DNA from: Sphingobacterium sp.
GTDB lineage: Bacteria; Bacteroidota; Bacteroidia; Sphingobacteriales; Sphingobacteriaceae
DNA length: 64,000 nucleotides
Direction of reading: 5' to 3'
NCBI GenBank assembly: GCA_031253985.1
Contig: JAIRVH010000223.1
Location: forward strand, 46,232 to 110,231
Shown here: piece after piece, positions 1,339 to 52,044 of the stretch
How the letters are laid out: each line of letters opens with the position of its first letter
How positions within the stretch are numbered: the first letter of the stretch is position 1
Program-made: the position numbers and the translations under genes
Notes under the pieces: generated by a model
Database searches by the model: none
Told to the model about the DNA's origin: nothing
Seen by the model: the letters and a program-made list of their open reading frames with translations, nothing else

Positions 1339-2532
1339 ATGGAAAAAAACACTAAACCGCAGCAATCTTTTATCCCGACGATACTTGCATTTGCACTTGT
1401 TCCGATTACGGGGCTTGCCACTGATATCTACCTCCCCTCGATGCCACAAATGGCACAGGAACTTGGCTTAAATGAAAGTAAGATCCAGTTAACACTTTCG
1501 CTTTTTCTAATCAGCTATGGTGTTGCCCAGTTCTTCACAGGAGCATTGGTGGATGCCTGGGGACGATATCGCATCAACCTGATCTCGCTTTTCCTTTTCG
1601 TTGTCAGCTTCTGGATCACAGCAAGCACGCAGGATATCTGGGTTATTTACCTCATGCGGATACTTCAGGGAATCTTATCGGCATTTGTGGTCATCTCCAA
1701 AAGAGCCTATTTCGTGGATGTCTATGAAGGTGAACAGCGTAAGCACTACCTCAGTATTATGACCATCGTCTGGTCCATCGGGCCAATTGTTGCTCCTTTT
1801 ATTGGCGGTTATCTCCAGACTCAATTTGGTTGGCGTTCTAACTTTATGGTCTTGGCGGTTTACAGTGCTGTACTGTTCGTGCTTGAACTTATCTTTTCCA
1901 GCGAAACGATCAAACAGAAAAAACCGCTCCATATGAACTACCTGATCGGGGAATTTAAAATGATGCTAAAAAGCAATGATTTTACGTTTGGCATTTTCAT
2001 GTGCGGTATCTCTTATGGTCTTGTGATGTTCTATAATCTCAGCGGTCCATTTTTTATTGAACATCAACTCGGATACAGTGCGATCACAACGGGCTATACC
2101 TCGCTTATTATGGGCTTAGCGTGGATGTGTGGTGGTTTTATTGGCAAAGCGCTGATCAAGAAAGCATTGATACCCAAATTGAGAATTGCCAACTTTATTC
2201 AAATTCTGCTGATCGTATGTATGCTTATTGTATCGCTCTATCAGGCGAATTTATATACGTTAACTTTCTTTGCTTTCGCTGTCCACTGTACTGCGGGATT
2301 TGTCTTTAATAATTATTTCAGCTATTGCCTGGGTAGATTTCCCCTATCGGCCGGTATCGCTGGCGGATTGGTCGGCGGAATTACCTACCTGCTGACATCT
2401 TCACTGAGCTATATCACTGTAAGCCTGGTAAACCCTTCTTCCCAGTTTCAAATTGGATTAGGATATGGGATATTTGCCCTATTAGGATTAATCACTTTGT
2501 ATGTTATTAATAAGCTGGTCAAAAGCATATAA
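1339..2532 (+). CDS. MFS transporter, Bcr/CflA-like drug resistance family
   Basis: 12-TM protein; TDIYLPSMPQMAQEL N-terminus and DAWGRYR loop typical of Bcr/CflA. Confidence 0.85.
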   Translation: MEKNTKPQQSFIPTILAFALVPITGLATDIYLPSMPQMAQELGLNESKIQLTLSLFLISYGVAQFFTGALVDAWGRYRINLISLFLFVVSFWITASTQDIWVIYLMRILQGILSAFVVISKRAYFVDVYEGEQRKHYLSIMTIVWSIGPIVAPFIGGYLQTQFGWRSNFMVLAVYSAVLFVLELIFSSETIKQKKPLHMNYLIGEFKMMLKSNDFTFGIFMCGISYGLVMFYNLSGPFFIEHQLGYSAITTGYTSLIMGLAWMCGGFIGKALIKKALIPKLRIANFIQILLIVCMLIVSLYQANLYTLTFFAFAVHCTAGFVFNNYFSYCLGRFPLSAGIAGGLVGGITYLLTSSLSYITVSLVNPSSQFQIGLGYGIFALLGLITLYVINKLVKSI

Positions 2533-2639: not shown

Positions 2640-2647
2640 TACATTTG
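2640..2647 (+). promoter_or_regulatory. Bacteroidota -7 element TACATTTG (TAnnTTTG) of sRNA copy A
   Basis: Exact match to TAnnTTTG just upstream of the duplicated RNA unit. Confidence 0.6.
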
Positions 2648-2719
2648 TACCATCATAATTTAGGTTTATAATTGGTTATTGAAGGTTTTCATTCTCCCCG
2701 TTTGAAAACCTTTTTTTTT
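2648..2719 (+). ncRNA. Putative small RNA, copy A
   Basis: About 70-nt intergenic unit identical to 51973-52044 except for 2 positions; ends in a 10-bp hairpin AAGGTTTTCA/TGAAAACCTT (2682-2691/2703-2712) with loop TTCTCCCCGTT and a T-tract. Confidence 0.75.
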
Positions 2720-17553: not shown

Positions 17554-19122
17554 TTAGAAACCTGGTGTTTGCTTAAAATTGTCATTACCTAAACTTTTGG
17601 CCATATCTACCTCAGACTGAGGCACAGGCCATAAGGTATCTCTTGCCATAAATAATCTTGACGCGCCATCTGGATCCTTGATTTTATCCATCACCTCTTT
17701 GATCAGTCCCCAGCGTTTCAGATCAAAATAACGCTGTCCCTCCAGCGCCAGTTCAATCCTGCGCTCATGACGGATAATATCGCGAAATTCACTTTTTGTC
17801 AAGGAGCCACCAAACTGCAATAAAGGCATTTTCACATCATCTCTGGAACGTACTTTATTCAATGCATCGACAGCTGTTTGGTCGGGTCCCACACTTTCAT
17901 TCTTTGCTTCCGCATACATCAACAAAATATCAGCATAACGTAAGAACACCCAGTCCTGATCACTCTGCGTGGCATAACTTGTCGGCCATTTTGATTCGTT
18001 GATATATTTTCTGGGCAAAAACCCGCCCAATACGCCCTCAGCGACAGGATCGAAAGCGGAAGAGGCTGTAGTGCCGCGCCAAACACCGCGGTACATAATG
18101 GTCGACTTCAAACGTGGATCTCTATTTTCGTAGGGATTTTTAGCATCGTAAACTGACGATTCTTTAATATCCTTACCATCGATAGCATAATAGGAATCCA
18201 CCAGATAACCCAAAGGCTGTATCGTTTTTAGATAGGAATACATCATATCTGCCGGACTGTACATATTGGGTGGTAAAAATCGTGCTGAAAACATGATTTC
18301 GGGATTACCATTTTGCCCAGGCTTTCTGAAGAGATCACGGTATCCCCCCTGGTAGATCGAAAACTTGTTTTCGTCCATAATTATCTTCGCTGTTACAGCC
18401 GCCTCTGCCCACTTCTTAGCTGTCAGCAACACCTTTGTTTTGTATCCGAGTGCAGATCCTCTTACAGCATGCCCCTTATAGCTTGTATTTGGCAGTTTTT
18501 CACTCGCATAGTCTAGATCTGCTAAAATCGCGTCCACAACGTTATTTTTGGGTGTTCTACCCAGCCGAATACTCGCATCGTCCATGCCCAGAGGTTCTAA
18601 AGTCAATGGCACATCGCCGTACAGATTGGTCAATAGAAAGTAGTAATGGGCGCGGATAAAACGAGCTTCCGCTTTATATCGGTCACGGTCCTGCTGGCTC
18701 ATACTTGTAATACGGTCAATATTGGCAATCAATTTATTGCATGCCGCAATGGCCTGATAAGAAATCTCATATCCCTCCGATTGCATCCCGCCTGTTGTCG
18801 AGGAGATTCCTGACCGCGAGATAATATTGAAATTATTGGATGTACTGGACACAAAGGCATCGTCTGAAAGTCCATCCCAAAACATGCTGGTTCCGCCCCA
18901 TCCACCACGCGCATTGGATGAAGATGTCGAATTATACCCCCGGCAAAGGAATTCATAACAACCTGATAAGGCCAAATCAGCATCAGCCTGCGTTTTCCAA
19001 AAGTTTGATTCGGAAATTTTATCTGTTGGATTTTTATTTAAAAAATCTTTTGTACAGCTTCCTAAGGCCATTAGAGCGGCCAAGCTCAGCGATAGATATG
19101 TTTTTTTTACGTTATTTTTCAT
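17554..19122 (-). CDS. SusD/RagB family outer membrane lipoprotein
   Basis: Lipobox LMALGSCTKDFLN, SusD fold motifs, C-terminal RHERRIELALEGQRYFDLKRWG. Confidence 0.95.
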   Translation of the reverse strand: MKNNVKKTYLSLSLAALMALGSCTKDFLNKNPTDKISESNFWKTQADADLALSGCYEFLCRGYNSTSSSNARGGWGGTSMFWDGLSDDAFVSSTSNNFNIISRSGISSTTGGMQSEGYEISYQAIAACNKLIANIDRITSMSQQDRDRYKAEARFIRAHYYFLLTNLYGDVPLTLEPLGMDDASIRLGRTPKNNVVDAILADLDYASEKLPNTSYKGHAVRGSALGYKTKVLLTAKKWAEAAVTAKIIMDENKFSIYQGGYRDLFRKPGQNGNPEIMFSARFLPPNMYSPADMMYSYLKTIQPLGYLVDSYYAIDGKDIKESSVYDAKNPYENRDPRLKSTIMYRGVWRGTTASSAFDPVAEGVLGGFLPRKYINESKWPTSYATQSDQDWVFLRYADILLMYAEAKNESVGPDQTAVDALNKVRSRDDVKMPLLQFGGSLTKSEFRDIIRHERRIELALEGQRYFDLKRWGLIKEVMDKIKDPDGASRLFMARDTLWPVPQSEVDMAKSLGNDNFKQTPGF

Positions 19123-22239: not shown

Positions 22240-22248
22240 AGTTGTTTT

Positions 22249-22267
22249 GGTTTATTTGGTTATTTAA
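22249..22267 (-). promoter_or_regulatory. Candidate sRNA pairing site in the first susC leader
   Basis: Plus strand GGTTTAT-TTGGTTATTTAA equals sRNA copy B segment 51988-52008 minus 2 nt, so the minus-strand susC mRNA is complementary to the sRNA 10-28 nt upstream of AUG. Confidence 0.4.
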
Positions 22268-22553
22268 CGAAGTAAATGAACCCAAATATCAAAAATCGCG
22301 AACAGCAAAAGGAGGAGTTTTTGTTCAAATAGGTGGAAAAAACAGCTTCATTCCTGATTTTCAGTGCGATTAAATGGATTTTAAAAAAAATACAAACCTA
22401 CCTCCCGGCATCCTCTGATTTTTCTTCGGGTCGACGACCATTTCAGCGCGAAAATAAAGTGGAGATCTGAAAAACTTGTGAGAGCCCCCTACCGCCCGGA
22501 AGATTATCAATTCTGCAATAAAATCGATATATTGTCCCCAAATCAAATTAAAA

Positions 22554-25451
22554 GTGAGGGAGTCGATGACAACAAAAAAATATAGTAACGTCTATATCTT
22601 TTGGTTTTGCACCATTTTATTTGTTTTGCTGCACAGGGGCTATTGCCAGACAATCATACCTACTGGAACACCTTTTGTAAAACAATACAAAAAAGGCCAG
22701 TATAAAGCCGGCAATCAGAACTGGTCATTGGCAGTAGATAAAGATGGCCGTATTTATAGCGCAAATACCGAAGGCCTGCTGCAATTTGACGGCCAATACT
22801 GGCGTGTATTTCCACTTCCCAATCATTCAACAGTCCGGAGTGTTGCGATCGGCAAAGATGGGAAGATCTACACGGGCGGAAGAGGAGAATTTGGTTATTG
22901 GACTTCCAAATCTTTTGGCAACTTGACCTACCATAGCCTCTCTAAGCTAGTGCAGGACAAAACCTATTTTCCAAATGAAGAAATATGGAAAATCATCGTG
23001 GAAGGCCAGCGGGTATTTTTCCATACTTTTTCCAAATCCTACATCTGGGAAAACAATACCATAAGACAGCTAACAGCAAAAGGAGAACCTTTTTTATTTC
23101 CGCATCAGCTGAATGACAAGTTATTTTTTGAACAGTTGCCAAGTGGTCTGCACGAATTTAAACAGGGTAAATTGATTCCCGTAAAGGGAAAAGATGTCCT
23201 GAAAGATAAAAATGTGCTCGCCCTATTGCCTTTCGATACAAATACGTCGCTTATTGCCACCTCACGAAATGGTCTTTACCTGATGAAAGCCGACGGAACG
23301 ATCATACCCTGGTCCGTTCCGGCAAACCAGCTCTTAAGTCAATCCCAGATAAACAACGGTATATACCTGTATGATGGACAGTATGCCTTTGGTACCATTC
23401 AAAACGGTGTTATTGTCATCAACAAAAATGGGCAGGTCATTCAGCATATCAATAAAAACAATGGGCTCCAGAACAACACAGTGCTCAGTATCGTCAAAGA
23501 CAATCAAAAAAATATCTGGGTGGGACTGGATAATGGCATTGACCGCATTGAAATTAACTCCCCCCTATCATTTTATACTGACTTTGTCGGAAAAATTGGT
23601 ACCGTTTATACATCGATTATCTATCAGGGAAAAATCTATCTTGGAACCAACAAGGGATTATTTTCGAGTGAATGGAAAGGTTTAAACAATTACAATTCAC
23701 TAAATTTTGCCCAGATTCCCAATTCAAACGGTCAAGTTTGGACTTTGGCTATATTTGGGGATGAGCTCATCTGCGGGCATAATGATGGAACCTTCAAACT
23801 GGTTAATGGCCGACTTGAGAAGATTTCGAAGATCACAGGTGGATGGGTTTTCAAGCCTATATTCGGCACAAAAAATATCCTTCAGGGGAACTATACGGGC
23901 TTATCGAAGTTTACCTTTGATGGTGTAACTTTACGGTTTGTCCAGCAGTTTTCAGGGATTAAGGAGCCGATCCGATTTTTGGCACAAAAGGATAGCCATG
24001 CTTTTTGGATCGGAGACTGGGGGCAGATACAGCTTCTTGGACTTGATCCAAGTTTCCAGCAAGGTAGTATTTTGTTTTCCTCCAAACAGGACAGCATCGC
24101 CTCCAAGAGGCAATTTACTGGAATTTATACCTTAGAAAATAATATTGTATTCGCCACAGATAGCGGATTTCTCCAATTCGACAATATCGTAAAAAAATTC
24201 AGTTATGCGGATGAATTAAATACCGCATTAGGCAGCTATAAAAATTCAAATAAGGTCATTCCGATCAATACAAACAGCTACTGGTTTATTCAAAAAACCA
24301 AAATTGCGAAAGTTGATTTTGACAGCAAAGGCAAGTTGCACATTGACTCCAATCTGCTCAGTCCCTTGCAGGACCGGATGATGAATAATTATGAAAACAT
24401 CCTTCCCATTGAAAATCAATACTATCTCATTGGTTTAGATGATGGATTTGCGATCTATCGTCATTCCGATAAAGCACAAAAACATACCTTGCCGCTTCCG
24501 CAAATATCGCAACTCGTCAACTTGACAACAGGACAGGCTATTATTCCAGATTCTTCTTTAAAATTATCGTCGTCAGACAATAACCTTAGAATCAGTTTTT
24601 CATGCCCTTACTATTCATCTTCGCCGCTTCAATATCAATATTATCTCGAAGGTCACTCAGACGATTGGTCGGAATGGAACGAAATTGCCTATCAAGATTT
24701 CACGAACCTGCCCTATGGAAAATTTCAGATTAAAATAAGGGCGAAAAACAATACTGGACTGATTTCGGAAGTCCAGGTATTTTCCTTTACCATTCGGTAT
24801 CCATGGTACCTCTCCTGGTGGGCAAAGGCATTTTATGCACTGGCTATGCTAGCGCTCATCTATTTAGCTTATCAGCTTAATCTTCAACGGGAGCGCAAGC
24901 GTCAATTTCAGATACGTCGAAAATGGCTGGAAGAAAAGAAGATTGCCCTGGAACGGGAAAACGAACAAAAAGAAAAAGACTGGATCAAACTTAAAAATCA
25001 GCAATTGGAGGACCAGCTTCAGTTAAAGAACAAAGAATTGGCTAATGCAGCACTCAATATTGTTTATAAGAATGAGATGTTGAACAACCTGCACGACGAA
25101 CTCAAGCAACTTAAGGATGCCGAGGGAAACAAACTGAGTTCTGATGAGCTGAAAAAAATCAACAAACTCATCGATGACGCCCATAATGACGATCGTGACT
25201 GGCATATCTTTGAACGAAGTTTTAACGAATCACATGAGAATTTCTTCAAGAAATTGAAACAGGAGTTTCCGGACCTAGTCCCCAATGATCTAAAACTATG
25301 TGCCTATTTAAGGCTTAATATGTCAAGTAAAGAAATCGCCTCATTGCTTAATATCAGTACGCGTGGTGTCGAGATCAGACGCTATCGGTTGCGCAAGAAA
25401 CTAGGCCTCCCAACAGACAAAAACCTGTCCGAATTCCTAATGGAACGTTAA
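22554..25451 (+). CDS. Propeller/Y_Y_Y sensor with C-terminal LuxR-type HTH transcriptional regulator
   Basis: Reg_prop-like repeats, Y_Y_Y region, single TM, coiled coil, C-terminal LNISTRGVEIRRYRLRKKLGL. Confidence 0.9.
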   Translation: MRESMTTKKYSNVYIFWFCTILFVLLHRGYCQTIIPTGTPFVKQYKKGQYKAGNQNWSLAVDKDGRIYSANTEGLLQFDGQYWRVFPLPNHSTVRSVAIGKDGKIYTGGRGEFGYWTSKSFGNLTYHSLSKLVQDKTYFPNEEIWKIIVEGQRVFFHTFSKSYIWENNTIRQLTAKGEPFLFPHQLNDKLFFEQLPSGLHEFKQGKLIPVKGKDVLKDKNVLALLPFDTNTSLIATSRNGLYLMKADGTIIPWSVPANQLLSQSQINNGIYLYDGQYAFGTIQNGVIVINKNGQVIQHINKNNGLQNNTVLSIVKDNQKNIWVGLDNGIDRIEINSPLSFYTDFVGKIGTVYTSIIYQGKIYLGTNKGLFSSEWKGLNNYNSLNFAQIPNSNGQVWTLAIFGDELICGHNDGTFKLVNGRLEKISKITGGWVFKPIFGTKNILQGNYTGLSKFTFDGVTLRFVQQFSGIKEPIRFLAQKDSHAFWIGDWGQIQLLGLDPSFQQGSILFSSKQDSIASKRQFTGIYTLENNIVFATDSGFLQFDNIVKKFSYADELNTALGSYKNSNKVIPINTNSYWFIQKTKIAKVDFDSKGKLHIDSNLLSPLQDRMMNNYENILPIENQYYLIGLDDGFAIYRHSDKAQKHTLPLPQISQLVNLTTGQAIIPDSSLKLSSSDNNLRISFSCPYYSSSPLQYQYYLEGHSDDWSEWNEIAYQDFTNLPYGKFQIKIRAKNNTGLISEVQVFSFTIRYPWYLSWWAKAFYALAMLALIYLAYQLNLQRERKRQFQIRRKWLEEKKIALERENEQKEKDWIKLKNQQLEDQLQLKNKELANAALNIVYKNEMLNNLHDELKQLKDAEGNKLSSDELKKINKLIDDAHNDDRDWHIFERSFNESHENFFKKLKQEFPDLVPNDLKLCAYLRLNMSSKEIASLLNISTRGVEIRRYRLRKKLGLPTDKNLSEFLMER

Positions 25452-51923: not shown

Positions 51924-51964
51924 TTTTTTTTGAAATAATACTTGACAGAGTGTAATAAACACAC

Positions 51965-51972
51965 TATCTTTG
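51965..51972 (+). promoter_or_regulatory. Bacteroidota -7 element TATCTTTG of sRNA copy B, with upstream TTG
   Basis: CTTGACAGAGTGTAATAAACACACTATCTTTG: TTG about 20 nt upstream of an exact TAnnTTTG. Confidence 0.7.
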
Positions 51973-52044
51973 TACTATCATAATTTAGGTTTATAATTGG
52001 TTATTTAAGGTTTTCATTCTCCCCGTTTGAAAACCTTTTTTTTT
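51973..52044 (+). ncRNA. Putative small RNA, copy B
   Basis: Identical to 2648-2719 except for 2 positions; terminator hairpin 52007-52016/52028-52037 with loop TTCTCCCCGTT and a T-tract. Confidence 0.78.

Follow-up and report, generated by a model that had tools for sequence, protein, structure and literature searches.

A multicopy small RNA family of Sphingobacteriaceae whose near-invariant seed is complementary to susC translation starts

The stretch of DNA analyzed here (the window; 64,000 nucleotides from a Sphingobacterium sp.) contains a PUL headed by a susC homolog. This susC is the first gene after the leader considered below, and its transcript is the presumed target mRNA; a plausible signal peptide (MITPITKTVGKGLLLFSLMSMSAPVVLAQS) begins at its start. 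SusD follows, together with an alpha-L-fucosidase, GH2, GH95, alginate-lyase-domain and GH88-like proteins, and a hybrid two-component regulator forms the far end of the locus (Table 1). Divergent from susC, positions 22554-25451 of the plus strand (listed start GTG) encode a Reg_prop/Y_Y_Y sensor that carries a helix-turn-helix at its C terminus (sigma-70 r4/LuxR-like) and likely serves one of the two neighboring PULs as a local regulator.

The window also harbors two related sRNA genes, copies A and B; in each, a 5′ seed of ~30 nt, predicted to be unpaired, precedes a Rho-independent terminator. Their ends were placed from motifs, giving 68 nt for copy B. Housekeeping promoters of Bacteroidota follow a –33/–7 consensus of TTG and TAnnTTTG, and the spacing from TTGACA to TATCTTTG upstream of copy B is as expected of this promoter type; expression of the sRNA from this site is predicted. 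At gathering thresholds, Rfam returned no family in the window or at the sRNA loci except for one unrelated tRNA. We also considered an antisense reading of the sRNA genes, in which AACCAATTATAAACCTAAATTATG would be a susC leader followed by its coding sequence, and rejected it: nothing resembling a susC ORF comes after, and those copies of the pairing 12-mer (see below) that lie in sRNA genes are accompanied by short ORFs alone.

Table 1 Features of the susC leader, its PUL and the two sRNA genes in the window
Feature	Position	Strand	Remarks
–7 element of copy A, TACATTTG	2640..2647	+	Sequence
sRNA copy A, predicted ends	2652..2719	+	94% identity to copy B over 87 nt; one seed change, TTATTGAA
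SusD	17554-19122		After susC
susC homolog, 1029 aa	19150..22239	–	TIGR04056, 917 bits; Plug, CarbopepD_reg_2 and beta-barrel domains; ATG at 22239
Extra 6-bp block UAUGAU over the start codon	22235..22240	–	RNAduplex and cofold structure
Extra 3-bp leader block	22245..22247	–	RNAduplex structure
Leader pairing site UUAAAUAACCAAAUAAACC	22249..22267	–	12 + 7 bp with the sRNA
Promoter of copy B, TTGACA ... TATCTTTG	51942..51972	+	Matches Bacteroidota –33/–7 consensus
sRNA copy B, ~68 nt, predicted ends	51977..52044	+	Conserved 5′ AUCAUAAUUUAGGUUUAUAAUUGGUU
Seed, unpaired 5′ region of copy B	51977..52006	+	Near-invariant 24-nt core; predicted unpaired
Intrinsic terminator of copy B, hairpin and U tract	52007..52044	+	Sequence and fold

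A preliminary description of this DNA had proposed that the susC leader pairs with copy B through 12 bp, a 2-nt bulge in the sRNA and 7 bp, 10–28 nt before the AUG. The sequences it quoted are present where it placed them—GGTTTATTTGGTTATTTAA on the plus strand at 22249-22267 and GGTTTATAATTGGTTATTTAA at 51988-52008—and the geometry holds, as does the single mismatch in the corresponding 12-mer of copy A (TTGGTTATTGAA, 2672-2683). The extent of pairing had, however, been understated: a further 3 bp and 6 bp bring the predicted duplex to 28 bp, with the UAUGAU of the leader, which spans the start codon, pairing with AUCAUA at the 5′ end of the sRNA. The minimum-energy duplex of the susC leader scored –20.9 kcal/mol with copy B, compared with –18.7 kcal/mol when copy A was the partner.

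Since the sequences involved are AT-rich and low in complexity, chance complementarity had to be weighed, and the 12-mer taken by itself is weak evidence for pairing: across the 6 Mb of the genome it occurs exactly 13 times (five of these in sRNA genes), compared with five for a reversed control. The full leader tells a different story. Only one in 5000 dinucleotide shuffles paired as well, so that composition-matched leaders do not account for the match, and the window susC ranked first among 602 genomic leaders; the class-wide susC enrichment described below, moreover, outlasts both GC matching and removal of this very gene. Chance is therefore an extremely improbable explanation, and the complementarity between the susC leader and the sRNA is real and far above background. 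Of the eight exact 12-mers outside the sRNA genes, three are correctly oriented and precede a plausible start codon of a long ORF by 19–38 nt; these ORFs are the window susC, a 353-aa lipoprotein-like gene (C191:34724, L031) and a 473-aa secreted/Tat-type gene (C205:219117, L035), the latter two being candidate targets outside the susC class. In the closest SusC ortholog, 80% identical and from another genus, the site is only partially retained (TAACC..ATAAAC; –12.5 kcal/mol), implying that the exact site of the window susC is not deeply conserved.

While both sRNA copies recognized initially are indeed present, the family turned out to be far larger, with ~19 members in this genome. Allowing up to three mismatches, the 24-mer seed had 14 matches in the genome and none in the reversed control. 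A sequence model scored 20 strong places (E<1e-6), or 19 if two identical places at contig ends (C51 and C191) represent one copy, as they may; the model was built from sequence alone because RNAalifold found no base pairs in a MAFFT alignment of the unalignable stems. A whole-genome DNA search recovered six full-length or nearly full-length copies plus nine places sharing only the seed. All read in one direction, the seed copies are followed by a hairpin and T tract, and while the stems diverge among paralogs, the 24-nt unpaired 5′ seed is near-invariant across paralogs and genera—a pattern as would be expected for a target-binding region. Despite sharing little stem sequence, nearly all paralogs retain CCC in the terminator loop (UCCCCG, GCCCAUC, CUCCCAA), perhaps as a protein or RNA contact. 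At one locus (G000:C90:9142-9702, L022), three paralogs, each furnished with a separate terminator, are arranged in tandem within ~560 bp.

Among named genomes, at least 117 stretches contain the exact seed, CATAATTTAGGTTWATAATTGGTT; of the matches listed, nearly all records belong to Sphingobacterium, Parapedobacter, Olivibacter or Mucilaginibacter. In samples of 396 genomes of the phylum and 198–295 of the class, a multicopy seed signal was confined to Sphingobacteriaceae, matches elsewhere being few and weak; a relaxed gapped seed pattern run against 295 class genomes likewise gave a clear multicopy signal in this family alone. The exact 39-nt sRNA pattern had no match in viral contigs, and BLAST of the seed against phages and plasmids returned matches at chance level only. 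Seed matches in Tenacibaculum phage JQ and a Prevotella Lak phage were discarded, as no terminator-like hairpin directly follows them.

Upstream regions of the sRNA genes are diverse. TAnnTTTG sits at the expected place in 29 of 116 distinct regions, including both window copies. Another eight, all among the 87 copies lacking TAnnTTTG (L022, L131, L134, L168, L172, L179, L192 and L394), carry a sigma-54-type –24/–12 site, TGGCA-N7-TG[CAT], ending 13–15 nt before the seed; the chance expectation is 0.07 such sites, and the 29 TAnnTTTG copies have none. Near variants (GGCACGGAGATTGAA and similar) occur upstream of other copies. Other copies are preceded by tRNA-like elements (L112, L117, L149, L155, L160, L169, L176 and L180, and L020 at 1660-1850, minus strand): in several Mucilaginibacter copies, a conserved tRNA-Leu-like element ends ~8–12 nt before the seed, and the C171 copy of the present genome follows another tRNA-like element with an insert. 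These elements were missed by ARAGORN and Rfam at default settings; it is possible that tRNA processing enzymes release the sRNA from such precursors. At the level of motifs, the upstream regions point to several inputs that may feed one output seed.

To compare susC with other genes, leaders from –60 to +15 were collected for 55 susC, 47 susD and 500 other ORFs from ~1 Mb of genome, and duplex energies were computed against the 32-nt seed region. The most-upstream ATG was taken as the start, so some leaders will be misplaced, which should blur rather than create a signal. The susC leaders had a median duplex energy of –13.4 compared with –9.9 for the 500 others (p = 5.5e-10), a shift that was retained upon GC matching (p = 4.7e-9) or omission of the window susC (p = 1.5e-9). 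Neither susD nor lipoprotein-like leaders were enriched for seed complementarity, and enrichment among other signal-peptide leaders was marginal (p = 0.03). Relative to their own shuffles, susC leaders had a mean z of –1.59 (susD, 0.03), and the real seed separated the classes with an AUC of 0.75, compared with a mean of 0.52 and a maximum of 0.68 for 40 shuffled seeds. In an unbiased count, the top hexamer of susC leaders was AACCAA (17/55 versus 38/547), with which UUGGUU of the seed would pair; TATGAT (12/55 versus 29/547) and G-U-compatible motif variants (TAATCAAT, 8/55 versus 4/547) were enriched as well. We do not claim covariation, because some A-rich variants that cannot pair (AAACAA) are also enriched in susC leaders.

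This last point touches on a rival explanation, namely that an AACCAA/AAACC-type leader is an intrinsic feature of Bacteroidota susC initiation or transcription, in which case the window susC would not be targeted in vivo and the sRNA would match it solely through this shared leader sequence. The enrichment does not reach the whole class—40% of susC leaders outscore 95% of their own shuffles, and the two other window susC genes in the set were unremarkable (ranks 181 and 468 of 602)—and weak AACCAA and seed-complementarity enrichment also appears in two genomes from which no seed was recovered: G190, belonging to a family in which none was detected (p = 0.07), and G021, whose 15 susC and six other leaders are too few to judge. 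However, the shift repeats in two congeners (p = 2.6e-7 in G450 and 2.8e-4 in G002), and the signal is stronger in all three sRNA-carrying genomes (mean z of –1.59, –1.19 and –1.99) than in G190 and G021 (–0.63 and –1.01). The window leader is, furthermore, the best of 602 and has its start codon within the pairing, and a seed that had evolved to fit susC leaders would itself imply susC targeting. We hence regard a purely intrinsic leader feature as unlikely. That a trans-acting sRNA controls susC at the level of translation, as first suggested for the window gene, is the reading best supported by the shared paralog seed, the susC-leader enrichment, its recurrence in congeners and the parallel with FopS discussed below.

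DonS-type sRNAs of Bacteroides are cis-antisense RNAs that are encoded opposite their own PUL susC and lower the expression of susC-type genes. The present sRNA differs in lying ~30 kb (copy B) or 19.5 kb (copy A) from susC and in having many potential targets. GibS of B. thetaiotaomicron has two seeds and targets the glucan-branching enzyme BT_0771 and BT_3893 (PMC7366714); its seeds, too, bind translation initiation regions, yet it is a separate RNA with a different set of targets. The closest parallel is FopS, 14 paralogous sRNAs of ~65 and 70 nt in B. thetaiotaomicron that bind susC initiation regions, block translation in vitro and are antagonized by the RRM-1 protein RbpB (PMC11697453). 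Both families are multicopy (14 members versus ~19 here), have a 5′ seed followed by a hairpin (at a length of 68 nt here as predicted from motif-placed ends) and have seeds complementary to susC translation starts, including those of the first gene of PUL operons. FopS genes are reported with a canonical sigma-ABfr promoter (PMC11697453); some copies here share TAnnTTTG, whereas others have sigma-54-like –24/–12 sites or follow tRNA-like elements. FopS belongs to Bacteroidaceae, the present sRNAs to Sphingobacteriaceae, for which our search of open-licence papers yielded no comparable description. FopS is bound and antagonized by RbpB, whereas RRM_1 searches detected no RbpB-like protein in this genome (99% complete) or in congener G002; the domain is present in Bacteroides ihuae, in 106 of 198 class genomes and in other members of Sphingobacteriaceae. 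Because no RRM-1 domain was detected, and the two families were compared by description, we did not file the present sRNAs as FopS; they nevertheless probably work like FopS.

Seed complementarity to many susC start regions, as in FopS, suggests that the sRNAs probably switch importers off. In the mechanism we propose, the duplex would form in the cell such that the seed covers the leader 10–28 nt upstream together with the AUG and blocks 30S binding, occlusion of ribosome entry being the simplest consequence of start-codon pairing; polarity or decay would then lower the whole susC-susD-hydrolase operon. We consider it likely that multicopy trans-acting sRNAs mask susC translation starts in this manner and lower importer expression. 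The RNAs could instead pair to another end, with mRNA decay or stabilization, premature termination, activation or a leader that acts as an sRNA sponge as the outcome. The sign of regulation lies beyond the reach of sequence, and in B. thetaiotaomicron FopS alters mRNA levels as well as translation (PMC11697453); pairing across an AUG is, however, the usual geometry of repression, and FopS represses translation in vitro (PMC11697453), leaving such outcomes with a rather small probability. The likely purpose of masking susC starts would be to keep glycan importers low in the absence of substrate or under envelope stress.

More tentatively, and with somewhat less than even confidence, we envisage a susC-silencing hub across Sphingobacteriaceae that operates without an RbpB-type protein: one seed might lie under housekeeping sigma and sigma-54-like promoters, perhaps also ECF-type ones, and within tRNA-like precursors, and through these several inputs various stresses or nutrient states would converge on importer shutdown. 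Such a hub could share an ancient origin with FopS or have arisen independently. In the searchable literature, FopS control of PULs is described solely for gut Bacteroides and tied to RbpB. With 55 susC leaders ranked against a single seed, target prediction in Sphingobacteriaceae is readily testable and, if the model is true, sRNA control of SusC-type importers would be a wider strategy of Bacteroidota in which RbpB is optional.
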